A stretch of DNA of 64,000 bases from Tubulanus polymorphus (taxonomy: Eukaryota > Nemertea > Palaeonemertea > Tubulaniformes > Tubulanidae): assembly GCF_964204645.1 (NCBI RefSeq), contig NC_134032.1, forward strand, positions 15,934,775 through 15,998,774, in the 5' to 3' direction. A program made the position numbers and the translations under genes. Below, in pieces: positions 188-23,937 of this stretch. Under the pieces are notes generated by a model. That model saw nothing but the letters and a program-made list of their open reading frames with translations, searched no databases and had not been told where the DNA came from. Each line of letters starts with the position of its first letter. Position 1 is the first letter of the stretch.

Positions 188-3100
188 ATGATAAAACGCC
201 ACCTGGTGAAAACTCGGTGGTCATGGTTAAACGAGAGGTTTCAGATTCAGATTTTCATCCCGATCTCATAAAAGCGTTTGAGGTTTGTGTTAATTTAATC
301 CCCTCCACTCCCCTTATACCCACCCCCTATACCCACCCCCTCTACTCCCCTCTCCCTCTCGCTGTCTCTCCCCCTATATCTGAGTTACCAACTGTTCCTG
401 ATTTTCAGTGTTTGTTACTCTTTTATAATGAGAAATACTGATTAGATTAGATTGATGGGTACAGAAATATGAAAGATTTTATTGAGGGTCTTACTGTTGA
501 TTACTGATTAATTTGAACAGAAATATGAAAGATTTTATTGAGGGTCTTACTGTTGATTACTGATTAATTTGAACAGAAATATGAAAGATGTTATTGAGGG
601 TCTTACTGTTGATTACTGATTAATTTGAACAGAAATATGAAACATGTTACTGAGGGTCTTACTGTTGATTACTGATTAATTTGAACAGAAATAAGAAAGA
701 TGTTACTGAGGGTCTTACTGTTGATTACTGATTAATTTGAACAGAAATATGAAAGATGTTACTGAGGGTCTTACTGTTGATTACTGATTAATTTGAACAG
801 AAATATGAAAGATTTTATTGAGGGTCTTACTGTTGATTACGGATTAATTTGAACAGAAATATGAAAGATGTTACTGAGGGTCTTACTGTTGATTACTGAT
901 TAATTTGAACATTTTCTTTCATATTTTAATGAAATAGTACTGAAAAAAATTCAATTAGTTACTGATAGCACTATTCAGAGTTTGGCAGCCCTGCTATATT
1001 CATATTAAACTGATTTGATTAATATGATATTTTTAGGATCAGTTGTCGACTGTGAAGGTATTGTTCTGTAATATGTGTTCAGTGAAGCCTCTATCGAGCG
1101 TCTCTTACGCTAAAACACATTATTTACAAGTTCATCCCGATGAGTGTCGCCGAGCGCCAGATCCGTCATTTCCATCACAACTTGAACTAGACTCGATACC
1201 AGCGCGACTCATTGATTGTTGGTCGGTAAGTCATCACCTAGCAACAATCACAGTTCGTATTGATGGATCAGGGTGAATCTTATCTTCAAATCCAGACATT
1301 TTCAATTGCTGTTCCTGTTGGGTTCGGTTTCACAAAAAAAGTTAATCTCAAATTTTTGGTGTAATCGCCATTGGTTACTTCATGTTTACAATGAGGACAA
1401 CAATTCAAACTTAACCGTTTTAGGCTCAAACTTTTTCGTGAAACTGGGCCCTGGTGATGAGTGACGCAAGGAACCTCTTGATAAGAAACAGCCCTCACTG
1501 AGGATATCTTATAATTTAATCAGGGAATTTGAATTTTTGGTGTCTTGTTGTTCTTGCTGGTGACGAGTGACACGAGGAACCTCTTGATAAGAAACAGCCC
1601 TCACTGAGGATATCTTATAATTGAATCAGGGAATTTGAATTTTTGGTGTCTTGTTGTTCCTGCTGGTGACACAAGGTACCTCTTGATAACAAACAGCCCT
1701 CACTGAGGGTATCTTATAATTTAATCAGGGAATTTGAATTTTCGGTTGTTCTTGCTGGTGACGAGTGACACGAGGAACCTCTTGTAAAGAAACAGCCCTC
1801 ACCGAGGATATCTTATAATTTGCTGAGTGAACGTGAATTGAATTGTTTGATTGTTTGATTTAGGAGATGTACAATGATAAATCTGGTAATATAGCATTAC
1901 CCAAAATGCACTGTCCATTGTGTCCGTTAACCACTCGTAATTTAGAATGTCTACGCCATCATTACGTTATCTGTCGTCGTGGTAACAGCAGTATGACCGA
2001 TGACGAAGTTATTGATTGTTTGAGTCAACCATCCATACCTGCAGACGTGTTGAACAAGTGGATCGTAAGTAAAGACACACGGGCACACGCCCAGCAGTGT
2101 GCGTGCTACTAGGGCACATGCCCAGCAGTGTGCGCGCCACTAGGGTGCATGCCAGCAGTGCGCGCTACTAGGGTACACGCCCAGCAGTGTGCGCACCTAT
2201 CATTCTTATCAGTCTATCTTATCTCTTCAGTCAATAAATGATATTCATTCACTGAAATGATTATTGAATTTTAGGAATCATTCAAACAGAAGAATTTGGC
2301 GTATTGCCCGAAATGTCGTTCGGCACGGCGACAAATGCAGTCGTTAAAATCTCATTACGTGTCTTGTTCGGCGAGAACGAAGCAAACAAAACAGCAGCAA
2401 CAGCAGACGCCGGTCTCAGTCGAGGAGCAGACGGCCTCAACAGAGGAGCAGACGGCCTCAGCTGAGCTGCAGTTAACCTCACTGGTACAGTGGCTCCATC
2501 TACCTCTACTTTTTCAATTTTATCGTTTTCAAAAGTTTAAAATTCTGATTTACAGTATTATACCCTTTCTATTCATACAATAGGACGATCCGTCTGTCGC
2601 TGCCATGAAAATGGAAGAACCGATGGATACGACCTTGACCCACGAGGTATGTCGTCATCGGTAACAGTTTGATTGTTGTCCATTCTAGTCGAAATTTGTG
2701 TAAATTTTTAGAGTGAAAGATGATTTGCATTTTTTTCAGGAGAATGTTTTGGTCGAAGATTCGGAACTACCAGACGCTTTGCATAATCACATAAAGGTAA
2801 GTGCAGATATGGGTCGCCCTCCGTACCAGAAATGGGTTGCGCTCGGTACCAGAAATGGGTTGCTCTCAGTACCAGAAATGGGTCACCCTCGGTACCAGAA
2901 ATGGGTTGCCCTCGGTACCTGAAACAATTGTCGCCCTCTGACGCAGAAACCTAATCAGGGTTTCCAGCGGTCCTTCCAAGTCTTTCTTAGTCCTTATTTT
3001 GGAAAAAGTTTGGACAAACATCTTTGTTCTTCTTTTTGACTCTAAGTCCTTCCTTTTGATAAAAAAAAAGTCCTTCAAAATTTGATTTTTATGTATTTTC

Positions 3101-6100
3101 ACATACATTTTCATGCAGATTTGTTGTGAATTCGACTGTTGAAGTATTTTCTTACTCAGACCTGGTAATTCAATTATCAGTAAGATTGAATATACAGGAA
3201 AGTGTTATGGAATTACCCTGAAATATATGACTGGTCTATATGACTAGTATTCTAGTAGAGGCATTGCGAAAATGCTCCCTTATGGGCCCTCATTATACTG
3301 GAAATAACTTCTTTCTGAGTCTCCTTTTGGGTCTAAAATTGCCGAAAAAGTCCTTCTTAGTACTTGTTTTTACTCTGGCCTTACCACTGGAAACCCTGGC
3401 CTAATGCACCTCGAAATCATTGATAATATTTCAGACATTGTCTACGACTGACGACAGTTTACAGTGCCCCCTGTGTACGACTATCGTAACTACACCGGTA
3501 GAATTGAAATATCACTACATCGAGAGTCACATGGTGGTTCGAGAACAGACTATACCTCTGAGTATCGTACAGGAATGGAAGGTATTTATTATTCCACCAC
3601 CAGGAGTCGCCTCCGTCCGCACAGAAAAATAGATCATATTTCCGTCGATTTCAATTCCAGGACCAGTTGAAAGAGGGCGCTGCGATGGTGTGTCCGTTTT
3701 GTAAAGAGAATCGTCACAATTTGAAAGTGATCGCGCTTCACTTCATAGCGTGCCGTAAACTACAAATATCCGCTATTCCGGACTCATTGCTGGCTGCGTG
3801 GCAGCAACCGGTTAATAGTGATATCCGGTGTCCGTTATGTTCTCGAGTCCGGCGTGGAATTGAATCGATGAAATCACATTACGTGCTGTGTAAAGTGCGT
3901 CGTCATGACGATGCCGTTGAACCTGATACAGGTAATTAATGATAAACGATTCATTCAGTTGAACTCGCTCTAAACTGCTGCCGATTCAACTTGAAAATTT
4001 CTTTCGTTTCAGTGATATCTCTACCTTCCGATACGGCTGCCATGACGACTGTCACTACGGCGTCGACGTCGAATCCGGTAAAGGTAGTTAGAGCGGACTC
4101 GATTCCGGCTGCCAGTCCGTCGACCTCTGCCGGTCGAGCGCAGCAAACAGTGCCCGCTGTAGTGATACCCATCCCACCGGTCGGTTCTACGATCGTGCTG
4201 CCATCTATTATCCAACAGCAGCAGCAACAGACCGTGTGCGCTTTAACTAAACTAGGTTTAAGCGGTAGTGGTAATCAAGCGATGGTTGAACTAGGTTTAA
4301 GTCAGGATGATGATAATTCGGATGATGAAGATGCTGACGCTATTGAAATAGATATATCTGATAGTATACGTGCTACATGGCTGGTGAGTGTAACCCCCGT
4401 ACACAGCCCTACACTACCCAGTACAGCCCCACACTGACCCATACAGCCCCACACTGCCCAGTACAGCCCCACACTGCCCCATACAGCCCCACACTGCCCA
4501 GTACAGCCCCACACTGACCAGTACAACCCCACACTGACCTGTACAGCCCCACACTGCTTCGTAAGCCCCACACTGACCCATACAGCCCCACACTGACCCG
4601 TAAAGCCCCACACTGCCCCGTACACAGCCCCACACTGCCCAGTACAGCCCCACACTGACCCATACAGCCCCACACTGATCCATACTGCCTCGTATAGCCA
4701 CACAGAGTCCATTACCTGGTATACATGCTACATTGCTCATAATTGTTCCTGACAACTCCAAACAGTCCTTCATTCCCGCACGGCCCCATAAATCCCAAAG
4801 GGTCAGTTTTATGTAAAAATATTTCAAACAAATTGTTGATTCTATGGTTTTAGCAACATCAAAAGGAGAAAGGTTCGATGCGATGTCCGATTTGTTACTC
4901 GAAACGCTCGGTAATGTCAACAATGGAAACTCATTATCGCGAGTGTTTCCGTAAAGGGGGCGTTGTTCGCAAATCACCTCAAAAACGTTACATTCGTGAC
5001 CCTAATAGTCGTCGCACGGTTACCGCGACGACCGCTACTCCGGCGTCTGTTGCTGTAGTAACGCAGTCAGCTGTTACCACGGATACACAATTGAGAGGTA
5101 ACAATCGTCGTTAGAAATTTTGATGTTTAAAATAACGACATGCGTTGCGTCTATTTTATGATTTGAGTTTGATTGTTACAGGTAAGAAGTCGACGGAGCC
5201 GCCCCAGTTAATGGAGCCACCCCAGCTGATGGAGCCGCCCCAGCTGATATTCGATGAGTTTGAGACGGAGAGTATCGTCAGCGATTGCACCGACCTGACG
5301 ACCGCGACTCAGGACAGCGAAACCTCGATAGAAACTCCTTCTCGTCGTCGTGGGCGACCGCCGAAAAAACGTAAACTAACATCAGCGGCGCCACCTGCGC
5401 AACGAGACACGCCTGGGCGGGATTATAACGATATATCGGAGATATCGCCGGACGATCTGAAAAACTGGAAGGTACGTTAACTTTCAACTAGAGCGGTTTG
5501 AATAATGAGGTAACCGTAGTGATAAGCGATTGTTGAATTTATTTACAGATACAACTAAAAACAAACGGATCAGCGAAATGTCCGTTATGTGGAGTTCATA
5601 GAAAACATATTGATAGCATTATCAACCATTATAATCACTGTATAGAGGTAATTTACTATACCATACATCTCACTCTGTCCTCCCGTCACCTCTCCTCACC
5701 TCTCTCCTCACCTCTCCTCACCTCACCTCTCCTCACCTCTCTCCTCACCTCTCTGTCCTCCCATGACCTTTCTCTCCTCTCCTGACTCCTCACTCCTCTC
5801 CTGACCTCTCTCCTCTCCTGATCTCTCTTTCCTCTCTTGACCTCTCTCCCGGCCCCTCTCTCCTGACCCCTCCTGGCCCCTCTCTCCTGACCTCTCTCCT
5901 CCTGACCTCTCTCCTCTCCTGACCTCTCTCCCGTCCTCTCTTGACCTCTCTCCCGGCCCCTCTCTCCTGACCTCTCTCCTCTCTTGACCTCTCCTCTCTT
6001 GACCTCTCTCCTCTCCTGACCTCTCTCCCGGCCCCTCTCCTCTCCTGACCTCTCTCTTCTCGTGACCTCTCTCCTCTCCTGACCTCTCTCCTGACCTCTC

Positions 6101-9100
6101 TTTCTCCTGACCTCTCTCTCCTCTCTGGTGACCTCTCCTTCATCTACACGATGTATTGTTATAATTTCAGACTGATTATACGTGTAAATTGTGCAACTCT
6201 GAATTCAAAACTTTGCCGTCATTAAAATTCCACTTCATGTCTGTTCATTCCGCCCTGGTAAGTGAGTCTGTCAGCAGGTTTAACCCCCCCCCCCCCGCCC
6301 CCTAGCGGAGGGTGTGAGTTGATAATCTGGTTGTACATATATTTCAGTGGAGTATGGATGTACCGGAAGGTTTAAAAGATGACTCGTCGTTAAGGGTTGT
6401 CATGCAGAAAGTCGGTCGTCTGCTTTGTCCGCGTTGTAACCGAGAAATTAGGACTTACTTCCAGTCGTATAAATACCACGTAGAATGGTGTGGTAGAGAG
6501 GTTAGTATCCTGTCTGTCTGTCTGTGTCTGTCTGTCTCCGCTGACTGTCCGTCTGTCTGTCTGTCTGTCTTTCTGTCTGACTGTCTGTCTTTCTGTCTGT
6601 CTGTTTGTCTGACTGTCTGTCTGACTGTCTGTCTCGGTTCACTGTCTGTCTGTCTGTCTGTCTGACTGTCTGTCTCAGTTCACTGTCTGTCTGTCTGTCT
6701 GACTGACTGTCTGGCTGTCTGTCTGTCTGTCTGTCTCGGTTGACTGTCTGTCTGTCTGTCTCCGCTGACTGTCTGTCTGTCTGTCAGTCTCGGTTCACTG
6801 TCTGTCTGTCTGTCTCGGTTCACTGTCTGTCTGTCAGTCTCGGTTGACTGTCTGTCTGTTTGCCTGTCTGTCTCCGCTGACTGTCTGTCTGTCTCGGTTC
6901 ACTGTCTGTCTGTCTGTCTGTCTGTCTGTCTCAGTTGACTGTCTGTCTGTTTGTCTGTCAGTCTCAGTTGACTGTCTGTCTATCTGTCTGTTTGTCTGAG
7001 CTAGGCCAACCGGAATGCTCTCAAATCGGGTTGAAATAGACATAAGGTGCATTCTTGTTATCGCGGATGATTTAAACTACCTTTTCACATTATATTCATT
7101 ATATATGAGAATCGGGGGTTATACACATTTAGTCAATATCATTAATTTGGGGTCTAAGGGCGCCTTCTATGTTATAATATATGATATTTATCTGCCAGTT
7201 GCCAACTATTCAGCAATTGTAGCCCCCGATGATTTCTGTGAATTTTACAGCTCTCTCCATTCACCTGGGCACAAGTTAAGCGCTTGATTTAAGTTTAATA
7301 AAGCGGTCTAACTGCAGTTTGGGTCACCTATCCACTGGGTGGCGCTAGTATTATTAAAGAATAGTGTTATGGTAAGGTTAGGTTCATAACCATTAAGGAC
7401 ACCTAAAATGCAGTCATACCAATAAAGTTTAAGAATGCTGAAATTTTAGGATGTCCCAGAAAATTGTTGGTGGTCCTGGGTTATGGGGATCTCTGTCCCT
7501 CGAAGCTGTGATTATAATCAGTTCAAATAAAGTAAACAATGATAGCAACAGAACAGTTTTAGTCTCCTCTTTACAATATTAAAATGTTGTGTTCATGTTT
7601 AAAGTTTGCATGAATAAAACATTTTATTACCCACTGTTTGTTTATCTGTCTGTCTGTTCTATCTGTCTGTCTGAAATGTCATAGTCCACTGCAACATCTA
7701 GTAAAAGTTATGTTTAATTCATAGTCTCCAAAATAAGTCAGCTACACAGATTTCAGTGGGTATCTAGGTCAAGGTTATTGCTTTGACATCATCAGTTATG
7801 CCTGGGTCAGTGAATTGAGCATGTCAATGGTGGTCATGTGACCTAGGGTTAGGGTTTGATTGGCTGGCTAGAGTCATGATGTCACTGGTGGTCATGTGAC
7901 CTAGGGTTAGGGTTTGATTGGCTGGCTAGAGTCATGATGTCACTGGTGGTCATGTGACCTAGGGTTAGGGTTTGATTGGCTGGCTGGCTAGAGTCATGAT
8001 GTCACTGGTGGTCACCTGACCTAGGGTTAGGGTTTGATTGGCTGGCTGGCTAGAGTCATGATGTCACTGGTGGTCACCTGACCTAGGGTTAGGGTTTGAT
8101 TGGCTGGCTAGAGTCATGATGTCACTGCACCTGACCTAGGGTTAGGGTTTGATTGGCTGGCTAGAGTTATGATGTCACTGGTGGTCACCTGACCTAGGGT
8201 TAGGGTTTGATTGGCTGGCTAGAGTTATGATGTCACTTGTGTTTACATGTGACATGCTCATGTAACATGTGATCAGTGATAATGAATGGTGCTAGTACAC
8301 ACACTAGTGACCAGTCATAGTGTAGTTTATACAGTGTAATCATGTGACCTCATTTCACTGAATAGTTTCATATTGCTCAATGCTGTAATTATCTGTTATA
8401 ATATAACATGTAATACAATATAATCCACATAACAATCAGTGAACTCTTCAATTTGGATAAAATGAGAATTGAATTTTCTACTGTCATAACACTGATTTTC
8501 ACATGAATTTGAATGAATTTATTCAAATAAAAGATAAACTGAAACTTTTTACTCCATAATTGACATCCCCGAAAACTAACAGTTTGCTACTGTCTAACTA
8601 TATTTCAACTGTGTAGTGTATTTAGTACATACAGAATTTTAAACCTTTGTGAATTCAGTGATGTCTGTTTTAATTGCTTTATTATTATTTCACACTTGCG
8701 TCCGGTCGCCTTTTTCTAACATCCTACCCTGCAGTAACTAAACTTGTCTGAACATCCTTTCGGATATACAGCCTCTACTCAGGCTCCTGTCACCTCATTG
8801 TCTTTAAACCTATTTTGTTATTATATATTTTGTATGTAATGATGGTGAAAAATAAACTTCTTAGTCAGATACTTCATTAAATCTGTCAATCAGATTAAAT
8901 CACCTTCTCAAGGGATACGAATTAAGCCGAATTTTGATTTACGGAATTTAAAATCTTTTTTTAAATTTCTAGAACGAAACAGAAGTTTGTACGGTGTGCG
9001 GTAACACTATAAAGCGGATGTATATGTTGGTTCACGCGAGGAAGCATCGCAAGGAACAAGCTTTAGAGGAACGCATTAAAGAGGAGCAAGAGAAGAAACA

Positions 9101-11397
9101 GTTTGAGGTCGACGACGATACTCCGCAGGTCGAGGGCGGACGACCGAAACGACGCGCCGCTAGACGGTTAGTTCAATAGGTGGCGCTGTTACTACCGGAT
9201 ATCTCTTCATTCGTCGCTATGACGACTGACCATTTCGATGGTTTCTATTTCAGAGCCGTCGAAAGTCTTCAGAATTTATCGAAGGAACTCGAACAGACCG
9301 GCGGAACGGGAGGTAACATTAAAAACCGGTTTATAAGTCCTCCGTTACCGAGTCCGCCGGGCGTGTTGATCGACCAGTGGAATAAACTGTTGGATGATGG
9401 AAAGAAACTGGAGTGTCAATTTGAGGTGAGTTTCACAAACTACTGGGACCCCCGTCCCTGCAAGGGATGCTCCCTCCCCCCTCCCTCTGGTATACTGATA
9501 TATCTATGAGTTGTTTGTTTACAGGGCTGTGGTAAGACACAGATAAGCGTACAGGCCGCTATCTATCACTCCCCCCTCCCTCTGGTATACTGATATATCT
9601 ATGAGTTGTTTGTTTACAGGGCTGTGGTAAGACACAGATAAGCGTACAGGCCGCTATCTATCACTCCCCCCTCCCCCTGGTATACTGATATATCTATGAG
9701 TTGTTTGTTTACAGGGCTGTGGTAAGACACAGATAAGCGTTCAGGCCGCTATCTATCACTCCTCCCTCCCCCTGGTATGCTGATATATCTATGAGTTGTT
9801 TGTTTACAGGGCCGTGGTAAGACACAGATAAGCGTACAGGCCGCTATCTATCACTCCCCCCTCCCCCTGGTATACTGATATATCTATGAGTTGTTTGTTT
9901 ACAGGGCTGTGGTAAGACACAGATAAGCGTACAGGCCGCTATCTATCACTCCCCTCCCCCTGGTATACTGATATATCTATGAGTTGTTTGTTTACAGGGC
10001 TGTGGTAAGACACAGATAAGCGTACAGGCCGCTATCTATCACTCCCCCCTCCCTCTGGTATACTGATATATCTATGAGTTGTTTGTTTACAGGGCTGTGG
10101 TAAGACACAGATAAGCGTACAGGCCGCTATCTATCACTCCCCCCTCCCTCTGGTATGCTGATATATCTATGAGTTGTTTGTTTACAGGGCTGTGGTAAGA
10201 CACAGATAAGCGTACAGGCCGATATCTATCACTCCCCCCTCCCCCTGGTATACTGATATATCTATGAGTTGTATGTTTACAGGGCTGTGGTAAGACACAG
10301 ATAAGCGTACAGGCCGCTATCTATCACTCCCCCCTCCCCCTGGTATACTGATATATCTATGAGTTGTTTGTTTACAGGGCTGTGGTAAGACACAGATAAG
10401 CGTACAGGCCGCTATCTATCACTCCCCCCTCCCCCTGGTATACTGATATATCTATGAGTTGTTTGTTTACAGGGCTGTGGTAAGACACGGATAAGCGTAC
10501 AGGCCGCTATCTATCACTCCCCCCTCCCCCTGGTATACTGATATATCTATGAGTTGTTTGTTTACAGGGCTGTGGTAAGACACAGATAAGCGTACAGGCC
10601 GCTATCTATCACTCCCCTCCCCCTCCCCCTGGTATACTGATATATCTATGAGTTGTTTGTTTACAGGGCTGTGGTAAGACACAGATAAGCGTACAGGCCG
10701 CTATCTATCACTCCCCCCTCCCCCTGGTATACTGATATATCTATGAGTTGTTTGTTTACAGGGCTGTGGTAAGACACAGATAAGCGTACAGGCCGCTATC
10801 TATCACTCCTCCCCCTCCCCCTGGTATACTGATATATCTATGAGTTGTTTGTTTACAGGGCTGTGGTAAGTCACAGATAAGCGTACAGGCCGCTATCTAT
10901 CACTCCCCTCCCCCTGGTATACTGATATATCTATGAGTTGTTTGTTTACAGGGCTGTGGTAAGACACAGATAAGCGTACAGGCCGCTATCTATCACTCCC
11001 CCCTCCCCCTGGCATACTGATATATCTATGAGTTGTTTGTTTACAGGGCTGTGGTAAGACACGGATAAGCGTACAGGCCGCTATCTATCACTCCCCCCTC
11101 CCCCTGGTATACTGATATATCTATGAGTTGTTTGTTTACAGGGCTGTGGTAAGACACAGATAAGCGTACAGGCCGCTATCTATCACTCCTCCCCCTCCCC
11201 CTGGTATACTGATATATCTATGAGTTGTTTGTTTACAGGGCTGTGGTAAGACACAGATAAGCGTACAGGCCGCTATCTATCACTTTCAACGATGTGATTT
11301 TAACGGATTCGAAGGTTTGTTCCGGTGTAAAAAGTGTAAGAAAGAAACGACGTCCGAACTGGGAATGAGGTATCATGTGACGACTAACCACGACTGG
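188..11397 (+). CDS. Zinc-finger half of the TFIIIC110-like gene: 13 fingers, mostly C2HC, with Trp linkers
   Basis: Exons here carry fingers at about 1070-1135 (C2H2), 1911-1973 (C2HC), 2314-2376 (C2HC), 3465-3530 (C2H2), 3700-3762 and 3829-3891 (both C2HC), 4884-4946 (C2HC), 5579-5641 (C2HC), 6183-6248 (C2H2), 6426-6491 (C2HC), 8988-9047 (C2H2), one split over 9411-9425 and 11239-11292 (C-x4-C, then H-x4-C), and 11329-11394 (C2H2). A typical C2HC finger is C-P-x-C, about 12 residues, H-Y-x-x-x-C or similar. Between fingers a short linker recurs, roughly I-P-x-x-L-x-x-W (IPARLIDCW, IPADVLNKW, IPLSIVQEW, IPDSLLAAW, SPDDLKNW). Most introns are phase 0, so one exon is close to one module. Extras are an AT-hook-like RRRGRPPKKRK in exon 5182-5471, possible SUMO sites VKRE and MKME, and an acidic stretch in 11599-11710. 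Nucleic-acid or protein binding is inferred. Confidence 0.8.
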
Positions 11398-14300
11398 GTG
11401 AGTACCGGCGTACACCACCAGGGGGCGTCACTTCATCTACTCTCGATATTTTGCAACATTTTCATCGATTTATTCAAAAAAGGAAAAGTTGAGACTAAAT
11501 AGAATCACTAAACGACTACTAGCGACACCTAGATAATGCTCACTTGCCGCAGTTAGAGCGTTGCCGTGGTATTTATTTCGATGTTTATATTGTTGCAGGA
11601 GACGAGCGATGCCAGCGACTACGAGGCTCAAATCTCAAACGAAGAGGAAGAAAGCGAGGAGGAAAGCGAGGAATCGGATCATTTATCGGACGACGATTCA
11701 TTCGTTAGAGGTTGGTTACCGTAGTGATTATAACCGTCGCGCCCATTGTTACTTAGTTTAAAATCCTCCCGAGAGAAAATTTAGATTCGTTTTATTTAAC
11801 GTCGATTTTAACGAAATCGCAACCAGAAATCTCGTTACCGTAGTGACGACTGTCGTGCATTGTTAGAGTTTTGATATTTCAGAATCTCACTCGTCGACGT
11901 CTAAGAGACGAACGGCGTCTGCTGCTGGTAACACGTCGTCTGCTCGTGTGTCACGTGACGTACCACATCGTCAACGTCCGGCAGCCGCTCATCGCAACTC
12001 GCAGAATTTCTGCATTAAACCCGACCCCGAATATATCAAACGTAACTACCGATATCACGATCGCCATGACGACGCGTGGATTTACGATTGTTGGCGACCG
12101 TCGCGATCGGATTGGTCTGAAATACCGTACAGGTTCGTAATGACGATGATATCACGAAGGCGGGTCGGGGAGGCTGTTGGTTCGGGGAGGCGGTCAGGGG
12201 GAGGTGAGGTATATTAACTGTTGATTGTTTATAATTTCAGCGATCGGGAGAATTATTTACCGGTTGCGAAATTCAGTCCTCAATTCCGAGTGATTAAAGA
12301 TCAGCAGACGACAGTTGAATCAATTACATTACCGCTGTTTCAATCAGTTACTGCTAGTAAGTGTTTCATTATATTACTCGCATCTCTCCCCAGGGGAAGG
12401 AGAGATGGGAAGGGAGGTATGGGGAGCAGGGAGAGGGAGAGGGAGAGATGAGGAGGGTGAAGGAATGAGAAGGAGGGAGATGGCTCCTCTCAATGTTAAA
12501 ACTTCATTCAAATTTTTCAGCGAATTTGGTCGCGTTTTTTGTCGGTGGACCAGTTTGGGCGAGCGACTGGTGCCCGACGCCATTGGCTGAAAAATCGGCG
12601 AATCAGATCGCTGCGTTAGCCGTACAACGACGACAGGAAGCGATCGACACGGACGTACCGTCTTTACAAATCTGGGATTTCGGTGTTTTGGATCCGACGA
12701 GTTTAAACTCGTGTGAACCTCGTATTAAAACCATCATCGACGTCGGAACTAAGAAAATCTGGACGTTAAAATGGTGTCCTAGCGGGTGTTGGGAAAATAA
12801 TATAACCGGAAAACAGGTTCGTTTCATGAAGAGGTGTTCAAGGGGGTGTTTGCAAAAACAGGGTTTTGGCTAAAAAGTTAAATCAGTTAAATTTAAATTA
12901 AATCTAGTCCAATCGATGTTTTTAAATCTAAGCCATTTGCTCATTAAAGCTTTTAATAAACTCGTTTTAGTTTTATATGTTTCTATGTTCTCTTAGTAAA
13001 TTATAATAATAATAATTATTATTATTAATAACTGATGTATAAGATCAGCCCGTAAAGATACACAAGCCCTCGATAGTTATATTTTGTTATGATATGTTTT
13101 AGGATGGTTCTATAAATAGACTCGGTTTACTCGCTGTTGGATGTCATGAAGGTCACATTAATATCTACAGGTAACTATTCGGGTTTTCTGTTACCGATTG
13201 ACTGACTGGGGGGATTCCCCAGACAACTGCGTGCCTTACTCTACTCGCATTTCCAATAAATGACTTTTGCTGAGAGTTGTCTCATGAAAACAGATTTTGC
13301 ACAAAGATAAAATTAGTTGTTCAGTGGCAGCTAAAACATCCACTGACATCTAGGGATAGAGAATCAACTGGCCCGACTAGAATTCCTCGGAGCCAGCAGC
13401 CAGCAGCCAAATCACTGATTTATGTCGATGTATTTGTAGCATTCCTCATCTGTCGTCTGTTGAGTCTGAATCTGATCTGTCCATTCATCACGTTACACCG
13501 AAACTGAAACTCACGCACTGGCAAAAACAAAAACAGGGTAAGACAACAATTAAACTGTCACATGATATCTCGACCTAGTAACGGCTTTATCACAATTCAT
13601 AAAAAAAACTGAATTATTCATTTCACAGGTGGTGCTAGTTGCACGTGTTTAGATTGGTCGCGTAGCAACGGTCATAAAACCATCGCCGCCGGTTACAACA
13701 ACGGAGTCGTCTGCACGTGGGATTTAACGTCGAGATCGCCGTTGCTAACGACGACCGATCCGGAGTTGACGATGTATCCTCATCGCGCGTTCCAGGCTCA
13801 TCTGCTCGCCGTGGAGAAACTGTCGTTCTGTTTACAGCAGGACTCTCATTTCGCGACGTGTTCCGGTGATCATTTCATACGAGTCTGGGACATGAATAAC
13901 GTTACCACGGCGATGGAAGCTACGAGAATGACGTATCAATCGGATATTAAATGGTGCGGTAACGGCAGTTCGTACATAGCAACCACTAATCAGGATTGTT
14001 ACAGGTACGTGTTACCAGTACCAGTTATTCCACTAGATGGCGTGCTGCCCCATCAATAACTAACTATTCCATTCTGACAACTAATCACGGCAACATTCCT
14101 AAAAATGTAATTGAGTTATTTAGAATAGAACGATGATTTATACTTAACATTAATGAGTTACGAGTGAAAGTGAAAGATTGTCGTTGATTACAGATTTCAC
14201 AGAGATAATTCTATTTGATGTATTTATTACAGTTACAATAACGATAGGCTGATTGTATTTGATGTATTTATTACAGTTACAGACAGTAATGATAGGCTGA

Positions 14301-16816
14301 TTGTATTTGATGTATCTATTACAGTTACGGTTCGACTTGTTTGTCGTTATCGACAGTAGGAGACGAGTCTCTAGTGAGCGCTAATCGTAGACGTGTCACC
14401 AGTCATAAAGCATCCATATGGGTACGTACATTACCTCCGTTACCTCCGTTACCTCTATCCTTTAAATCTCATCCGTTACCTCTATCCTTTAAATCTCATC
14501 CGTTACCTCCGTTACCTCTATCCTTTAAATCTCATCTGTTACCTCCGTTACCTCCGTTACCTCTATCCTTTATATCTCGTACGTTACCTCCGTTACCTCT
14601 ATCCTTTAAATCTCATCTGTTACCTCTATCCTTTAAATCTCATCCGTTACCTCCGTTACCTCTATCCTTTAAATCTCGTACGTTACCTCCGTTACCTCTA
14701 TCCTTTAAATCTCATCCGTTACCTCTATCCTTTAAATCTCATCCGTTACCTCCGTTACCTCTATCCTTTAAATCTCATCCGTTACCTCTGTTACCTCTAT
14801 CCTTTAAATCTCATCCGTTACCTCCGTTACCTCTATCCTTTATATCTCATCCGTTACCTCCGTTACCTCTATCCTTTATATCTCATCCGTTACCTCCGTT
14901 ACCTCTATCCTTTAAATCTCATCCGTTACCTCCGTTACCTCTATCCTTTAAATCTCATCCGTTACCTCTGTTACCTCTATCCTTTATATCTCATCCGTTA
15001 CCTCCGTTACCTCTATCCTTTATATCTCATCCGTTACCTCCGTTACCTCTATCCTTTATATCTCATCCGTTACCTCCGTTACCTCTATCCTTTATATCTC
15101 ATCCGTTACCTCCGTTACCTCTATCCTTTAAATCTCATCCGTTACCTCCGTTACCTCTATCCTTTATATCTCATCCGTTACCTCCGTTACCTCTATCCTT
15201 TATATCTCATCCGTTACCTCCGTTACCTCTATCCTTTAAATCTCATCCGTTACCTCCGTTACCTCTATCCTTTATATCTCATCCGTTACCTCCGTTACCT
15301 CTATCCTTATTAAATCTCTTCCTCATTTTGTATTGTCAGTGTCAAAGTTATTCCTCGGTTAACGATAACTTTTTGTTTCGATGAAGAAAAAAGACCAAAA
15401 GACGTGTAACCGTAGTAACGTGTATTTATTGTATTTCTAACAGTGTTTGTCTCAATCTGATTGGTTGAATATGGGAGTAAGCGGCGATACGGTCGGTGAA
15501 GTGATCGGACGATCTCTCGTTATTCCGTCGAGTTGGGAGAAAATGATGCCTCGAATTCGTTACGTGAGTTCTTACTTTTAAATTTGAAAATTCAACTCCC
15601 TCGATTGTTGATCCGCGTTTAACCGCTGAAAGATTTCTGGATGGGTTTTCGCTGCGTGTTTCGGACGTATGACCTTGGCCCTAGAAAAAGTAAAAAAAAA
15701 AACTAGCTTAGGAAATCTGAGTAGCCACTAGAAAAATCTAGAAAATATTGAGAATTTGAGAAATTTTTGTAAAAATTTGGAAAACTCATGGAATTCATTG
15801 CTTTGATGCGTGAAATGAAAGAAACGTTAAACAGGTTTAACCCTTTCAGTGCTGACTAATTAATACCCTATAGTGCTGGGCCCAGTTTCACGAAGAAGTT
15901 TAAGCCTTAAACGGTTAAGTTTGAATTGTTGTCCTCATTGAAAACATAGATAATTTGAAAATTTTTAGAAATTCCACCGTAGTTTGTTGAATAACGGGAA
16001 TACCATTATAATGCGTCTACACTGCGGCGCGGTGTATCGTTAGTTACTAGTATTTCACTATGTTTGACAGGTGCTGCCATCTTTCAATAGAGATAAAAAC
16101 TAATTACCAATTACATCAATACACCACAATGCGGTGTACTAGCGAAATCTATCACTGATTTATACACCGCACTGCGGTGTAGACGCACTGAAAGGGTTAA
16201 AGAGTTCGATTAAAAAGTCGGATTATTGATTATATTCCAGTGGATCGTCCGGTTTTTAGTGGAGCAGAAAAATGCCGCTCCGAACGACATCTTCGAAATG
16301 ATCAAACCGAAGGAAGGCGGTCCGGTTGGGGGAGGTAAGAAATCAGGTCGCGGACGTCCGGCTAAACCGGTACGCCCGCGTGGACGTCCGCCGAAACGTC
16401 GTCGAGGCGGAGGGACATCCGGTGGCGGCGGTGGGAGTGCTCCGACAGAGCAGCCCGACGAACACGAAGCGAAAAACGAAGTCGAACTGGAAATGATTCG
16501 TCAACGACAACTGAAAAACGTCGGTATTTTGATGGACGAGATTTTACACTTTTCGAACCGCGATAGATTGGACGATATAATCGCCGAGATGGAGGAACGT
16601 GAGGATATGAAACATCGTCAGAGGCTGGCCGCCGCGAAACTACGAGACGTTCTCATTGACTTTCACGATCTACAGGAACAACGCATGAAACAACGATCGG
16701 AGATAGCAGGCACTGGCGAGCGAGTAGTAGCGCCGGCAGGTGGCGCCGGCGGTGACACATTCGCCAAGAATATGAACGATCTACTTACGACTAAACAACA
16801 ATTCCTGACTCAGCAT

Positions 16817-16849
<33 letters not shown>

Positions 16850-19800
16850 CACGACGCCCATGACAACGGCTCGATCGATGACATCATAGACAGTGTTGTA
16901 TTTCAGTCGTCGGAGGGAAATTTAGACACGAGTTTCATCGAATCGTTCATGAACGACGAACTCTCTGAGCTACCGGCGCCACCTACACTACCCGCTACCG
17001 TTAACAACGCTCCCGTCGCCGTGGTTATAGACAACAATAATCACGAGAATAAACCGGTAGTCAAGGAAACGGCGGTAGCGTTAACGCAGGAAGTCGTAGC
17101 GCGACACGATTTAAACAGGTATCACCCGCACGCCGTAACCGTGGTAACCAGTACCGTTAACACGCGACCGTCGTCGGCTCCGAGTCTCATGCTAGCTCGT
17201 TACATCGACACGCAGAACACGGCGCCATCTATACCGGTCTCGGTTACTGACGAGAAAACGTTACGTAAAACAACTCAGCAGCAGCAGCCCGATAACGGAC
17301 TGGTTAAACGACCAGCGCAGAACAAGCGGCGCCACCACGAGGCGGAATTCAGCGATAACGAGACGACGAAGTCGAGTCGTCGGAGTTCGTTAAACGCGAT
17401 CCTCACCGAGGTGATGGATCAAACCGATCACGAGTGTTCCAAGTTCGAGGGTTACGAATCGTCGAAACTCTATCTGGACGAGATGATCGAAACGGCGCTT
17501 CATTCGTCGCGACGTCGTGTCAACTCGGAGCGCGACGTCGTACGCGAACGTGTCAACGTGTCGACGATGAGCGACGCCGAACTGTCGTCGTTAACCCGTG
17601 ATTTAACGCGTCACCTCGACGACGATACGATCAATCAGGTCGTCAAGTGGAACGTCGATCAGATATTCCGTAAATGCGGTTACGATCGGAGGCCGAAACG
17701 ACTGAGACAACGCAACAATAACTCGAATCTACGAGCTAATGTTCGCATGAAGAATTCACTCATCAAAAAAAGTCTAAGGTTTTTCCGTGAAGTGACAACG
17801 CACCAGCAGCACCAGCAGCGTCAGACAGTTGAGCACCAGAAGCAGCAACAGCGACAGACAGACGCGCAGTTGACACAACTCCAGCAGCAGCAGATGAAAA
17901 AACAAAAAACAACAATCAATAACGTCAAAACAGACCAGCAGACTGTCGTCATGACGACTAATTGTTATTCGAACGACGGCGTAATTTTATACGGAGACTC
18001 ATCAGCGCCATCTATTATGAAGAATAGTCCGACATCGCGTAAATGTGAGAGTTCAAATGAAATTGAAAAGGCTGTTGAGATGAGCGAGAAAGAGGGGACA
18101 CCACAGCTGGAGCAGTCCTCACAGATGGAGCAGTCCTCACAACTGGAGCAGTCCTCACCGATGGTTAACGGAGGTCAAACATCTCCGCTGGATTTATCCG
18201 TACTCCACGTCGAAAATAACACCGACCAAACAGTGGATATCACTAAAACACAGTACGCCGCGCTGGATGGAACGGTGGATATCACTAAAACACCTTACGC
18301 CGCGCTAGATGGAACGGTGGATATCACTAAAACACCTTACGCTACGCTCGTCGCGCATTTAACGTCCGGAGTTGATTTAGATTCGGTCGCTACGGATGGG
18401 AAATTACCGAACAACGTCGTCATGGCTACGCAACAGAAGAACGACGATACGTTGTGTTTGATGAAGAAAGAAGACGATTGCGGATTAGATTTATACGAGA
18501 TTAAACCGTTATCGGCGTCATGTGACCCGGTTCAACGCGACTTACTACCGAATCTAAACGTACTGGCAGCAGTCGCCACGGGAACGGCTGTATCCAACGC
18601 AACAATGAACGTTATACCCGGTTATAACGTGGTGGCGCTACCGTCGACTCCGGTCGTCGGGGCGATAACGATCAGTAGTGTTGAGACTAATAACTCGACG
18701 ACCGCGGCGACGTATACGATATCAGCTCTTCCGAATACGGGTTCGTCGGTTACCGGGGGTGATAGCGGTATTCCAAAACGACCTCAAACTATCGAAATAA
18801 TACCCTCCGCGCAATCTCAATATCACGTTCAAAATATCGCCAAACAGGAGCAGTTTGATTTATTGAAATCGGAGGAACGCTTACCTTCACTGCCTCCGCT
18901 CCAGAAAGTGGTTAGTACTCCGGAGTACGAGATGTACGGTACCCACCCTGCGGAGGTAGTTACTCCAGCGCTCCAGAGTACTCCGGAATATGAAGTATAT
19001 GGTACTCACGCTGTTCCTCCAGCGCTCCAGAAAGCCAGTACTCCAGAGTATGAAGTATATGGTACTCACGCTGTTCCTCCAGCGCTCCAGAAAGCCAGTA
19101 CTCCGGAGTATGAAGTATATAGTACTCAGGCTGTTCCTCCAGCGCTCCAGAAAGCCAGTACTCCGGAATATGAAGTTTATGGTACTCAGGCTGCACCTCC
19201 AGCGCTCCAGAAAGCCAGTACTCCGGAGTATGAAGTTTTCGGCACTCACGCTCCGAGACTCATTGAACTGCAGCCCGGAATGAAACCTACTGCGGCAAGT
19301 TATGTACTACACGACATGTCGACATTAAACAGTCTTTCGTCGGAACTATCGTCAGTCGCTAGTACGCCTATAGATGGCAGCAGTAGTACAACGGCTTCCG
19401 ATACGTTATTATTCAACAACGACGTATCCGCGGTAACGAATAACGAGTATATGTCGTCGTTAGGTTCGTATTTAACGGATGTAATTCAAGTGACGATGAA
19501 ACAGAAAGAAACGATCGATAATTTAACGGCACGAACGACGAACGCGTTCGATAATCACATGCCTGAATACATGGAACTGTGTCGCCGTAACGACGAATTA
19601 AATTCGACGTTCGAGGACGATAAACACGTTCCGGAAATCCCGTCGTCGTCGTCGTCGAGGGCGACAAAGTGGATGAATTTCGACGGAGTAGTTTCGGACG
19701 TCGTTGCGGCGGCCGTCGCTCGTAACGACGAGAAAATATTCGAGAGAGTTTTACGCAAACGATGGCATCGTGAAAACTGGATGAAATATAACCGTAAAAC

Positions 19801-22800
19801 CGGACTGGAACCGGTCGCAGTCGGACCCGACTCGCGACCGGTCGGACCAGTCGGCGGACCGGAGTCGGCGAGTTGCGAGTCTTGTCGCGCGGTCGAAGCT
19901 GCGAGGCACTACGATAAACTAGCGTGGGACACGGTTTATCTCGTCAAGTGCGAAAACCGTTCTAAAACTATCGAGGATATACCGAGCGGAGTTCGATATT
20001 TCGCGCGTCGATTGAAACGCTCGAAATCGGTCGAGAATATCCACATGCGTTGGGTCGGTATGACCGATAAATGTTCGCGGTGTCAGAACGGCGGAAAACC
20101 GGTCGCCGTCGTCACGCGTCCCGACAACGCATCGCAATTAAAACCGTGGTCGACGCTCGATCACGTGTTAAACAGCGTCGTCTGTAACCCGGAGAAAGCT
20201 ATCAAAAATCTACCGGAGAATCGCGTAAAGCGCCACCTGGAGGCGGTTCTACAACGCGTTATAAAGGACGATAGTTTAACGGTGAATATGGCGGAGATTA
20301 ATCGCGATCTCAAAGGTGATCCGTTAATGATTGAATTCCACCGCGAACGTCGTCTTAAACGTAAACTGCGTAAACAAAAACAGACAGTAAAACGACTTCA
20401 ACAACAACAATCGGTCGTTACCGCGCCAACGGCGACCGCTCAACGACGATACCCGACGCAGGATTACGACGTGTTTATGAATTCGGCGTGCGTCGCCACG
20501 ACGACCGAGCACGGTTTCCGTCTGCCGAGCGTCGCCGAATTATTGCAACCGATGGCGACGATTCAATCACAAAACAATCAGGGTTCGTTACCCCCGATAT
20601 CGGCGCTGAGGAGTTCGTTAGAGAGTTCACCGGACCACCAGGGGGCGCTACCTCCGCCGGTCGTGTATTCACCCGGTTACTACGGTAACTGGTACGGATA
20701 TGATCACTCGCCGCATTCGGCTCTTCTCTCGCCGTCCGACCTCGTGACCTCGACCTCTGCTCCGTTACCGACTACCGTTCTCGATATGACGGACGTCGTC
20801 ACGGCGCCAACGCAACAATCCGAGCAGACGGATTTAACGTTGAAACGTAAACGATCGCCGAACGAAGAATTGGCTCCGATATCGGACGTGATGAGAAACT
20901 GTTACAGCGTTCCGTCTGTCGATCAGATCGTCATCGGTGACAATAAAACACGCCACAACAATAACAACAACAACATGGCCGCCGCCGCCGGGGTTCGTGG
21001 GAAAATTCCATCAACAGTGCCATCTGTGTCTACACAACACATTAATTATACCCCGGAGCCAGCAGCAGCAGCAGCAGCAGCAGCGGTAAACGTGAACCAG
21101 GAATACACGGATTATCCCGTTACCACGACAACTGGAGGAGGATATTCGAGTGTTGCCACGACGACCGGAGGTGGTTATTCTAGCGTTGATCACGTGTTAG
21201 GTAACGATAGCTGGACTCAGAGCGCGATCGCGGCCATCGCGGAATCTCAATCTAATCTGCATTTACTCGCTGAATTAATGGACATGCATCATCAACACGA
21301 GTTAAAACAACAGCAACGTCAGGAGACAGCAGCAGCTGCAGCTGCAGCAGCAGCAGGTGCAATCCATCAAAACAGCAGCAGCAGCAGCAACAATCACCAA
21401 CAATCACTCTCCACGCCAAACCAGTTCAACTCGGCTACAGTCACAGTGCTGCCATCTATTGATCAAATACAGCAATCTGTTATTCCAGTTGCACCAGCTA
21501 CCACTGCACCAGCTACGTCTGCACCAGCTATGAGTGCACCAGCTGCACCAGTGAGTCATAGAGCCACGAATAAAACCATGCCGCCTAAAGGTAACAAGGG
21601 TAAGGTCAAGGTCGTTGCGAAAAAACGCGCCCCGCGTAATTCTTCATCCGTAACCGCGACGACGAAAGGAAAATCGAGTAAAAAGACGATGGCGAGCTCT
21701 ACGGGTGTTGCCGTGACGACAACGCCGAATAATACCATTCAAACGAATCTCGGCGCGATCGTTTGTCCAGACGCGCCAGTAGAGGGCGCCACCGCTGTCG
21801 ATAACGGAGATATACAAGTTTTATGTTTGGAAGAATGCGGGGAAGAGAATTACGCGACGCTCGTATCGATAGACGAGGAGTTCAATGAGACGGAGAATCG
21901 AGTTCGTGTAGATATACCGATTCAACAATCAGCGCCATCTACGTCTAAACAATCAACAGCAGTTTACACAAGTAACGCGGATCTGGAGAAAGTATTCGCT
22001 GATGTTCGTAACGATTGTTTGAAATGGGCGGAAGAACGAGATCGTGTTAATTCGGTACAAACTGCGTCTGCCGAGAACATCGGTACCGTCGTCGAACAAC
22101 AGGTGGCAGCACCTGATGGTGAAGAGGTGGACGACGAGGAGGAGGAGGATATGAAACCGCTGTACGATAGCGATGATGAAATAGTTTGTCACGGATTGTT
22201 GGAATATCATCGAAAAATCATCGATTTATCTCAAACTGACGACGATGCAGAGAATGTTGTCAAGGTCGATGTGGAGAATGTCATCAAGGTCGATGCGGAG
22301 AACGTCAGCAAGTTCGATGCGAAGAATGTCAGCAAGGTCGATGCGGAGAAAGTCAGCAAGGTCGATGCGAAGAACGTCAGCAAGGTCGACGTGGAGAAAG
22401 TCAGCAAGGTCGACGCGGAGAATATCAGCAAGGTCGACGCAGAAAATGTTGTCAAGGTCAATGCGGAGAATGACGTGAAATCCCAGTCCCTGAAGACAAC
22501 CTTGACGGTTCAGCCAAAGGTCATCGCTATGGAGATCGATGGTAACAATAGTAAACCGAATCCTGGTGATGGTGGTGATGCCGATGGTGAACAAAATAAT
22601 GGTGGTTGTGGTGGTGGTGATGGCGATGCGCCATCTGGTGGCATTCAGGAATCAACGCCGCCTGGTGGTAGCGATGGTAAACAACCAGCAGACGATGGAA
22701 AAACTGATGAAAAGACGAATTCAGAATTAAACGATGAGTTCAACATGGTGTTACAGGAATTTGATTTGGTAAGTTTTCAATCCTGCTGCCTCCTCTCACT

Positions 22801-23937
22801 GCCTACCTCTCTCTCACTGCCTCCCTCTCCCCCTCACTCTCTCCCTCTCCCTCTCCCTCCCTCTCTCCATCTCCCTCTCCCTCACTCCCTCTCCTTTCCT
22901 CATTCTCTCCCTTCTCTCCCTCTCCCTCACTCCCTCTCTCCCTCACTCCCTCTCCTTTCCTCATTCTCTCTCTCCCCTCTCTCCCTCTCCTTTCCTCATT
23001 CTCTCTCTCCCCTCTCTCCATCTCCCTCTCCCTCACTCCCTCTCCTTTCCTCACTCCCTCTCCCCCTCACTCTCTCCCTCTCCCCCTCACTCTCCCTCCC
23101 TCTCTCCATCTCCCTCTCCCTCACTCCCTCTCCTTTCCTCATTCTCTCTCTCCCCTCTCTCCATCTCCCTCTCCCTCACTCCCTCTCCTTTCCTCATTCT
23201 CTCTCTCCCTCACTCTCTCACACTGTATTTCAATGTTGCCAGTAATAGACAGTAATGTTGATATGTTTGTAGAAGGATATAGTTTCTGATTCGAGATTGA
23301 GTATGATGTCAGATCTACGCAGTTCACAGGTTGACCACACTCCGATTACTTCAGTTACACAGGTACGACGTCAGTTAAACAGTTCCAAACTTCTGTCCAA
23401 ACCCGCACTGTAGATTTGTAGAAAGAGTTTATTTTCTAACAGTTTCTGAACAGGCTCTGAAGATGAGGTTTAGAATTAACCTAGAAAGAAATTAAACCTA
23501 GTTAGAATTAACCAAGTTAGAAAATAAACTTCAATTTCTACAAATCTACTGCGGGTTTTACTTTCTATACTGATATTTATATCAGTTCACGACAGTCAGT
23601 TTCAAACGTCAGTTCATCGAAAGATTTATTCAGAATTCAGAATTTTCAGTTTTAAACTATAAATTATTTTAAACTATAAATTATTAATTCAGTCGGTTCG
23701 ATGTATTCATTAATTGTTGCGTGTTGCTATCGGCGACGCATCGCCCTCATGAATTAAACGACGACGATTGTTGTTTTGTAGTTATGTTGGAATCCGAACT
23801 ACAGCTCGTACACGTGGTTACTAGTGACCAGTCACTCGGGTATCGCTACGATACACTGTCTGTCGGGACTCGCGGCAACAATCGACGAGCGCAACGCTAC
23901 GACAACAGACGGCGCCGCTGCATCAACTACGACGTGA
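188..23937 (+). CDS. GTF3C2: TFIIIC110 (GTF3C2)-like WD40 protein fused to a 13-zinc-finger N-terminal region; 5' partial
   Basis: I join 29 exons whose phases match throughout: 188-282, 1037-1225, 1864-2064, 2275-2484, 2584-2646, 2740-2796, 3435-3581, 3661-3931, 4013-4383, 4854-5097, 5182-5471, 5549-5647, 6171-6257, 6348-6500, 8973-9166, 9254-9425, 11239-11397, 11599-11710, 11883-12132, 12241-12356, 12521-12816, 13103-13170, 13440-13537, 13629-14004, 14325-14421, 15444-15563, 16241-22768, 23273-23362, 23782-23937. About 3,768 residues lie in the window; the first exon begins at an acceptor, so the start is upstream. The family subunit belongs to TFIIIC, which binds the B box of tRNA genes and recruits TFIIIB and Pol III in the nucleus. 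Motifs FVGGPVWASDWCP, IAAGYNNGV and WLLVTSHSGIATIH match the order of the TFIIIC110 propeller from memory of that family. Human GTF3C2 has no comparable finger array or giant exon, so the fusion is inferred from continuous splicing phase. Two genes sharing a read-through transcript is the alternative. Confidence 0.78.
460..912. repeat. 56-bp tandem repeat, about 8 copies, in an intron
   Basis: Unit GAACAGAAATATGAAAGAT followed by TTATTGAGGGTCTTACTGTT recurs at 515, 571, 627, 683, 739, 795 and 851, exactly 56 bp apart, with only a few substitutions. Confidence 0.95.
1318..1455. mobile_element. MITE-like inverted-repeat element, family 1 (GTTTCACGAAAAAGTTT ends)
   Basis: The left end GGTTTCACAAAAAAAGTTAA pairs with the right end AACTTTTTCGTGAAACTGGG. 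The core contains GGTTACTTCATG and ATGAGGACAACAATTCAAAC. The same element occurs at 49791-49926 and 51359-51511, as a half copy at 15886-15985, and as short relatives at 46676-46753 and 24958-25025. No coding capacity is seen. Confidence 0.7.
1453..1830. repeat. About 100-bp tandem repeat, 4 copies, in an intron
   Basis: CTCTTGATAAGAAACAGCCC recurs at about 1475, 1581, 1680 and 1779 with the same downstream sequence. It begins at the end of the family 1 element, so the element's right edge may have been caught up in the duplication. Confidence 0.85.
2080..2200. repeat. Short tandem repeat right after a 5' splice site
   Basis: A unit of the form GCCCAGCAGTGTGCGCGCTA plus about 15 bp is repeated three to four times, starting about 15 bp after the donor at 2065. 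Confidence 0.75.
2808..2925. repeat. Tandem repeat right after a 5' splice site
   Basis: GTACCAGAAATGGGTTGC-type units of about 24-30 bp, four copies, beginning about 12 bp after the donor at 2797. The rest of this intron (2930-3434) shows no gene. Confidence 0.8.
4390..4705. repeat. 20-bp minisatellite right after a 5' splice site
   Basis: CAGCCCCACACTGACCCATA-like units repeated about 15 times, beginning within 10 bp of the donor at 4384. Long open frames on the minus strand here are products of the repeat. Confidence 0.92.
5655..6140. repeat. CT-rich simple repeat in an intron
   Basis: Irregular CCTCTCTCCTGACCTCTC units fill the intron between exons 5549-5647 and 6171-6257, ending about 30 bp before the acceptor. 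Confidence 0.92.
6507..7000. repeat. CTGT tetranucleotide satellite beginning at a 5' splice site
   Basis: CTGTCTGTCTGT runs with interspersed CGGTTCACTGT units start about 9 bp after the donor at 6501 and continue to about 7000. Confidence 0.95.
7001..8972. other. Long intron without a gene
   Basis: AT-rich intron sequence of the TFIIIC110-like gene. Apart from the repeat at 7825-8238 I see no exon or RNA gene; short open frames lack splice or homology support. Confidence 0.6.
7825..8238. repeat. 58-62-bp tandem repeat with telomere-like core
   Basis: About seven copies of a unit containing CCTAGGGTTAGGGTTTGATT, GGCTGGCTAGAGTCATGATG and a variable GGTGGTCATGTGA end. Each unit has roughly two TTAGGG-type words. 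It is intronic, so it is not a telomere. Confidence 0.92.
9515..11285 (+). repeat. Tandem array of a 3' splice site plus exon start (18 extra copies, about 95 bp each)
   Basis: Each unit holds a C-rich tract, a possible branch sequence TACTGAT, a T-rich tract with acceptor TTGTTTACAG, and then the first 45 nt of exon 11239-11397 (beginning GGCTGTGGTAAGACACAG and ending CTATCTATCAC). I count 19 acceptors from 9524 to 11238; only the last continues into the complete exon with TTTCAACGATG. Reading through from any earlier copy meets an in-frame TGA in TATACTGATA. Each exon copy also contains GTGGTAAGAC, a good 5' splice site 7 nt after the acceptor. Units are nearly identical, so the expansion is recent or homogenised. 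Confidence 0.93.
11599..15563 (+). CDS. GTF3C2: WD40 propeller part of the TFIIIC110-like gene
   Basis: Nine exons (11599-11710 through 15444-15563) encode an acidic linker, a basic Ser/Arg-rich stretch, and then propeller blades. Visible blade signatures are VWASDWCP and SLQIWDFG (12521-12816), GLLAVGCHEGHINIY (13103-13170), CTCLDWS, IAAGYNNGV and CTWDL (13629-14004), HFATCSGDHFIRVWDM (13629-14004) and VSGDTVGEVIGRSL (15444-15563). The small exon 13440-13537 was placed because skipping it puts a stop in frame, while including it restores phase on both sides. In the family this propeller holds subunits of the B-box-binding half of TFIIIC together. The sixth intron of this block (14422-15443) is almost wholly a 36-bp minisatellite. 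The match to TFIIIC110 rests on blade order and wording of several motifs, which I consider strong. Confidence 0.82.
14216..14327 (+). repeat. Triplicated 3' splice-site region before exon 14325-14421
   Basis: TTTGATGTATTTATTACAG followed by TTAC occurs with acceptors ending at 14232, 14276 and 14324. The third is the real exon border because only it continues into GGTTCGACTTGTTTG in phase. Confidence 0.85.
14433..15313. repeat. 36-bp minisatellite, about 24 copies
   Basis: Unit ATCCTTTAAATCTCATCCGT plus TACCTCCGTTACCTCT, length divisible by three. This keeps two frames open for over 300 codons, but both are repeat artefacts. It starts about 12 bp after the donor at 14422. Confidence 0.95.
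15886..15985. mobile_element. Half copy of MITE-like family 1
   Basis: GGGCCCAGTTTCACGAAGAA to about TCCTCATTGAAAACATAG matches one half of the element at 51359-51511; the other end is missing. Confidence 0.6.
16241..22768 (+). CDS. Giant 6,528-bp exon (2,176 codons) inside the TFIIIC110-like gene
   Basis: One uninterrupted phase-0 exon between acceptor TTCCAG and donor GTAAGT. It starts with two AT-hook-like motifs (GRGRPAK and RPRGRPPKRRR), then becomes mostly low-complexity and probably disordered. It contains a polyQ run near 16819-16850, further Q-rich stretches at 17800-17910, poly-Ala at 21060-21087 and 21329-21358, a 14-residue repeat (VDITKTPYAALDGT, three copies, 18235-18350), a 20-residue repeat around STPEYEVYGT (six copies, 18915-19250), and an 8-residue repeat of the type KVDAENVS (about ten copies, 22258-22478). 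A Cys pair-rich patch (CESCRAVEAARHYDKL, later CSRCQNGG) at about 19875-20090 might bind metal. I recognise no enzyme domain. It lies between the sixth and last WD blades, where the human protein has only a loop of roughly 150 residues. Confidence 0.8.
22775..23222. repeat. CT-rich repeat right after the giant exon
   Basis: CCCTCTCCCTCACTCCCTCT-type sequence fills most of the intron between 22768 and 23273, extending the open frame of the giant exon artificially. Confidence 0.93.
23273..23937 (+). CDS. GTF3C2: Terminal exons encoding the last WD blade of TFIIIC110-like protein
   Basis: Exons 23273-23362 and 23782-23937, both entered in phase 0. The second reads LCWNPNYSSYTWLLV, then SHSGIATIHCLSGLA, and ends at TGA 23935-23937. 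This resembles the C-terminal blade of human TFIIIC110, where a similar Trp-Leu-Val, Ser-Gly, Ile-His, Gly-Leu-Ala order occurs. The longest open frame over this exon (23721-23969) is a different frame and lacks this match, so splicing phase decided the call. The blade completes a propeller whose other blades end at 15563, about 8 kb upstream. Confidence 0.78.

Follow-up and report, generated by a model that had tools for sequence, protein, structure and literature searches.

The intron that precedes exon 11239-11397 in a gene of the nemertean Tubulanus polymorphus carries 19 near-identical 3′ splice sites, which raises the question of how they arose, which of them is used and whether the surplus ones serve any purpose. 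The locus amounts to an unusual natural competition among acceptors with an almost equal local context, in a gene presumably needing a working product. The stretch of DNA that was analysed, referred to below as the window, comprises 64,000 nucleotides (positions 15,934,775-15,998,774 of contig C8, which is 16,677,571 bp long) and stops about 0.68 Mb short of the contig terminus. All coordinates are those of the window unless a sampled piece is named, and the main features are listed in Table 1.

Table 1. Positions of the array, its splice signals and the neighbouring coding features in the window
Feature	Position	Strand	Remark
Coding exon upstream of the array	9254..9425	+	Ends in CTGGAGTGTCAATTTGAG (LECQFE), phase 0
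Upstream donor GAG/GTGAGT	9426..9431	+	Score 10.4 (12 introns of the gene, leave-one-out: 3.2-12.3)
Tandem array of 19 units	9474..11284	+	95-bp unit composed of a CT tract, 36 nt of intron and 45 nt of exon
First decoy acceptor TTTACAG	9518..9524	+	99-nt intron if joined to donor 9426
First potential 7-nt microexon GGCTGTG	9525..9531	+	GGCTGTG in 17 of 18 decoys; GGCCGTG in copy 4
First internal donor GTAAGA	9532..9537	+	88 nt before the next acceptor
Last acceptor TTTACAG	11232..11238	+	Only acceptor leading directly into the full exon
Working exon (GCGKTQISVQAAIYHFQRC...NHDW)	11239..11397	+	First 45 nt equal the array consensus
Following coding exon, frame kept	11599..11710	+	In the same open frame as the working exon
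WD40-repeat ORF	13613..14056	+	Top PDB hit: human general transcription factor 3C polypeptide 2

Minisatellites are head-to-tail arrays of similar units of about 10-100 bp, and positions 9474-11284 of the forward strand hold such an array, with 19 head-to-tail copies of a 95-bp unit (TRF: period 95, 19.0 copies, 97% matches). Each unit takes in roughly 50 nt from the end of the intron plus the opening 45 nt of exon 11239-11397; the duplicated stretch spans the intron-exon boundary and includes the splice site of a coding exon. Eighteen copies stand upstream of the working exon and the last copy is the real junction, as had been described in a sequence-only reading of this DNA, which is confirmed in this respect. 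The acceptor TTTACAG/GGC is present 19 times, with ends at 9524, 9619 and so on up to 11141 and 11238, at a spacing of 93-99 bp (95 bp in 13 of the 18 intervals). In 12 of the 18 upstream copies the exon part matches the opening 45 nt of the real exon perfectly, and each of the other six carries a single substitution. The CT tract varies between copies in both length and sequence, and the pairwise identity of the 81-nt core averages 98.7%, with a minimum of 95.1%. Given this length and identity, the array is not a chance match. The genome search (267.8 Mb, 77 contigs) yielded nine matches to the array units, all within the array and none elsewhere, in a procedure that scored only the best candidates and skipped very common words and does not thereby prove uniqueness. 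Over-assembly of a true array of one or a few copies is extremely unlikely: scattered substitutions and unequal CT-tract lengths set the copies apart, the array spans 1.8 kb, and the assembly (77 contigs for 268 Mb) appears to be based on long reads.

The exons around the array belong to a single open frame of 290 codons, made up of 8973-9166, 9254-9425, 11239-11397, 11599-11710 and 11883-12115, the end of the last having been placed by us within the exon and not at a donor. The frame joins 9425 to 11239 across the array, and this junction splits a finger-like segment (CQFE/GCGKTQISVQAAIYHFQRC). Two more open blocks are found upstream, one of eight exons and 553 codons at 2712-6500, the other of three exons and 200 codons at 1037-2484, both containing finger-like motifs. 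Joined as one, these 11 upstream exons gave no open frame overall and, as we counted it, junction 2484/2712 is out of phase. Among PDB entries, ORF 13613-14056 matched 8cli_C best (human GTF3C2 / TFIIIC110; E = 3.6e-14, next best 1.2e-10; 71 matching sequences), in agreement with the TFIIIC subunit proposed earlier. We infer that a single gene comprises both the finger-like exons and the WD40 ORF, with stretches 6501-8972 and 12116-13612 lying outside the gene model.

Pfam matches to exon 11239-11397 were found only below the curated cut-offs. The comparison of this exon with the genome gave 20 matches, comprising one full-length match (the real exon), 17 decoy copies and two sequences elsewhere (E = 1.32 and 3.62), which were set aside as weak. 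Since no other sequence was found to match the real exon over its full length, the working product presumably needs this exon. A paralogue with a single-copy junction, which might have represented the ancestor, was not found in the genome search.

An internal donor follows 7 nt of exon in all 19 copies (GTAAGA in 18, GTAAGT in copy 15), as had been claimed, and the distance from this donor to the next acceptor is 88 nt in 13 of the 18 units, 86 nt in two, 90 nt in two and 92 nt in one. Splice sites were scored with matrices trained on 12 introns of the gene model that have in-frame neighbouring exons, which is a small training set. The array donors scored 7.7, except for that of copy 15 (10.6). 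The acceptor scored 9.8 in 18 identical copies and 9.0 in copy 9; the 19 acceptors reported before are nearly equal in predicted strength. The doubtful introns 283-1036 and 2485-2711 were excluded from the final matrices; with them, the scores were 7.8 for the donor and 11.3 for the acceptor. In the leave-one-out scoring of the 12 introns, the gene's own sites ranged from 3.2 to 12.3 for donors and from 5.0 to 13.4 for acceptors. Outside the array, equal or higher scores on the + strand of the window were reached by 50 of 4112 GT and 62 of 3302 AG dinucleotides, the gene's own sites counted. Five of the 12 gene introns are short (77-87 nt), the remainder being 172-700 nt long. The unit length and splice signals resemble the gene's own, and each unit is therefore a possible intron. 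The branch-like TACTGAT noticed earlier is present at -32 to -26, although it is only branch-point-like and an AG (offset -14, score -0.5) stands between it and the acceptor. The masking of decoys by RNA structure was considered and rejected: unit 10283-10377, the one folded, was no stabler than its shuffles (z = +1.05), 170 of 200 of which folded equally well or better.

The agreement of the site scores with the gene's own range, the rarity of such scores outside the array and the length of 86-92 nt against 77-87 nt for the short introns speak for a serial mode of splicing, in which every unit is removed as its own intron, from the copy's donor to the next acceptor, with 7 nt left each time. 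The possibility of stepwise splicing or 7-nt microexons, raised by the sequence-only reading, draws support from the same scores and spacing. The same duplication geometry has given a spliced intron in the potato RdRp gene, where a tandem duplication over an intron-exon boundary gave rise to a new intron, with its splicing demonstrated by 106 RNA-Seq reads (PMC4974935). The potato segment, like the nemertean one, takes in the 3′ end of an intron together with the 5′ end of the exon behind it, and a cryptic GTAAG of the exon part becomes the donor, the acceptor side being inherited (PMC4974935). The nemertean unit has an exon-derived donor and an inherited acceptor as well, both of usable strength (7.7 and 9.8). 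The two cases differ in that the potato gene has two copies and the nemertean array 19, that splicing is shown by RNA in the former and predicted from DNA in the latter, and that the nemertean unit would keep only 7 nt of exon (PMC4974935). Serial removal is a possible but doubtful mode here, since it requires 18 accurate steps and a single skip shifts the frame.

The reading frames bear on both the chain and the single use of an upstream acceptor. Read-through from the 18 upstream acceptors always meets a stop, which is TGA in 16 cases and TAA in two (copies 14 and 18, where the TAA falls in the following unit); the TGA claimed for all earlier acceptors holds for those 16. It had also been claimed that the cell has to choose between the last acceptor and nonsense products. 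This is correct for read-through, but when the first k units are taken as 7-nt exons, the frame remains open through 11599-11710 at k = 0, 3, 6, 9, 12, 15 and 18 and meets a stop at the other 12 of the 19 values, in a test of first-k sets of units. The frames left open by the first 0, 3, 6 and up to 18 decoys favour serial removal, and the 18 upstream copies do make up a multiple of three, yet this would happen by chance in one case out of three. The inclusion of all 18 microexons would produce an in-frame insert of 126 nt, or 42 codons (five GCGLWAV and one GRGLWAV), in the finger-like segment, and such an insert would alter the spacing of the CQFEGC motif. Moreover, the donor lies 7 nt from its own acceptor, and at such a distance the joint recognition of both sites may be hindered. 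It seems rather unlikely that the array represents 18 newborn micro-introns spliced stepwise, with a message readable only at multiples of three retained 7-nt exons. If it did, the array would represent junction-duplication intron gain repeated 18 times, and changes in its copy number would work as a frame counter. The multiple-of-three rule is a sharp genomic prediction of serial splicing.

We favour, with a probability of about 0.6, the explanation that the array is a neutral young minisatellite grown from a duplicated junction, with the last acceptor reached mainly by exon definition. Over the 45 nt that follow the acceptor the copies are almost the same, so local sequence can hardly decide which acceptor is taken, and exon definition is probable as the main means of choice. 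It favours the last copy because no other copy has a normal exon, here of 159 nt, extending to a donor (11398). Intron definition would act differently: the distance from donor 9426 to the first acceptor is close to the length of the gene's short introns, which would favour the first acceptor and the chain. The joining of donor 9426 to the last acceptor takes an intron of 1,813 nt, compared with at most 754 nt for the other modelled introns (stretch 6501-8972 being outside the model). The splicing pattern of the array would distinguish intron definition, which predicts the first acceptor and chains, from exon definition, which predicts the last acceptor. The last acceptor is probably favoured, with the chain in second place. 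The use of upstream acceptors, single or chained, would be a side product that is cleared by nonsense-mediated decay.

Neutral expansion of a duplicated junction is likely as the origin of the array. A segment across the intron-exon junction would have been duplicated in tandem, in a region already rich in tandem repeats, and the duplication may then have expanded by slippage or unequal exchange, fairly recently, with the splice signals carried along passively. Arrays with a period of at least 15 make up 26.6% of the window. In comparison, 24 sampled 10-kb pieces averaged 5.8% (4.6% for the first 20), with a median of 5.1% and a maximum of 24.5%. The window has a GC content of 43.1%, the first 20 pieces lying at 27-40% and the remaining four at 35-42%. 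The few pieces sampled do not support nearness to the contig end as the cause of this repeat density. Tandem repeats made up 10.5% (L037), 6.9% (L039) and 5.3% (L040) of three pieces located 0.3-0.7 Mb from contig ends, and the densest piece (L038, 24.5%) lies on the same contig as the window, at 14.0 Mb and 2.7 Mb from the end, so end proximity alone does not explain the density. Among the other intronic arrays of the gene (window 283-6347), five of six start 7-38 nt past the donor (P = 0.013 under uniform placement), in a test picked post hoc that counts intron 283-1036, itself doubtful, but neither the array 9474-11284 nor another at 6510.

The survey of arrays with a period of at least 62 in the window and the 24 pieces revealed three splice-capable arrays out of 24, the array 9474-11284 included, versus 0.46 expected from single-base shuffles (donor at least 7, acceptor at least 9, intron at least 60 nt; the cut-offs were fixed after the array scores were known, and the matrices still held introns 283-1036 and 2485-2711). 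The other two are L036:3777-4321 and window 26872-28747. No pattern is claimed from this survey for splice-capable arrays in general.

The abundance of tandem repeats throughout the window also speaks against the graded control of a TFIIIC subunit that the sequence-only reading had inferred from the array. In such an explanation, a selected array of regulatory decoys would trap spliceosomes at the upstream sites and lower or tune the mRNA level via nonsense products or intron retention. The stops met on read-through from every decoy (TGA in 16, TAA in two) would suit such a role. Decoy exons are discussed together with intron retention in the literature. The 81-nt core of the 19 copies contains ten substitutions, which are distributed alike over the intronic (4/684) and exonic (6/855) positions (Fisher p = 1.0); the more variable CT tract, upstream of the branch-like motif, was excluded from these counts. 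The splice signals, counted as the 27 of 81 positions in the acceptor, donor or branch-like motif, hold four of the ten substitutions (P(≤4) = 0.79) and are not depleted, although the power of this comparison is low. Conservation of splice signals above the rest of the unit was not found with these ten substitutions in 19 copies. Five of the six exonic substitutions change an amino acid, and the real copy carries none of the ten. Nothing indicates selection on the decoys, at this low power, and a regulatory role is very unlikely. The observation made in the sequence-only reading is confirmed, while its interpretation is supported in part, graded control being the part without support.

A tandem repeat that adjoins an exon and contains its splice site is also known from intron 18 of human ABCA7, where a VNTR with a 25-bp unit that includes the exon 18 donor is present in about 12 to 427 copies (PMC5954066). 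Longer alleles accompany more skipping of exon 19, and a product retaining one repeat unit occurs independently of repeat length (PMC5954066). The ABCA7 unit is a 25-bp donor-only sequence, in contrast to the 95-bp nemertean unit with an acceptor, an exon start and a donor (PMC5954066). The near-donor starts of the gene's other intronic arrays resemble the position of the ABCA7 VNTR at its exon. As far as the available parts of the two reports go, the potato and ABCA7 cases each match a part of the nemertean locus, and neither has an array of complete acceptor-donor units.

Consecutive reactions are a feature of two further systems, recursive splicing, in which a long interval is removed stepwise (as at the ratchet sites of Drosophila), and the stwintrons of fungi, in which nested introns are removed one after another. 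A chain along the array would likewise clear one long interval by consecutive reactions. However, in recursive splicing the acceptor is directly followed by the donor, with an exon of zero length, whereas 7 nt intervene in all 19 units of the array, and the array introns lie side by side, unlike the nested ones of stwintrons. No tandem array of acceptors or of complete acceptor-donor units was found in the titles and abstract openings searched, which leave most subscription journals outside and the absence unproven. The array bears on whether intron gain by junction duplication can recur many times at one place.

Several other features of the region were observed. At 5175-5189, at the start of exon 5182-5471, an acceptor abuts a donor-like sequence (ACAG/GTAAGAAG), an arrangement that resembles a recursive splice site. 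Positions 16214-23245 form one uninterrupted open frame of 2343 codons, which contains coding tandem repeats, e.g., of 18, 42, 60 and 24 bp; Pfam gave no match above the cut-off for the two 1000-codon pieces of it that were searched. A scan of the window against Rfam gave no hit at the gathering score. At 26679-28872, in the same window as the TFIIIC-like gene, lie arrays whose 75-76-bp unit contains GGTTCGAACCC, which we take to resemble the B box of tRNA genes. Arrays with a period of 153-154 bp were detected on four contigs (L019:3605-4208, L026:7889-8167, L027:4238-4830 and L036:3777-4321) and, judged by the period alone, are perhaps one dispersed repeat family.
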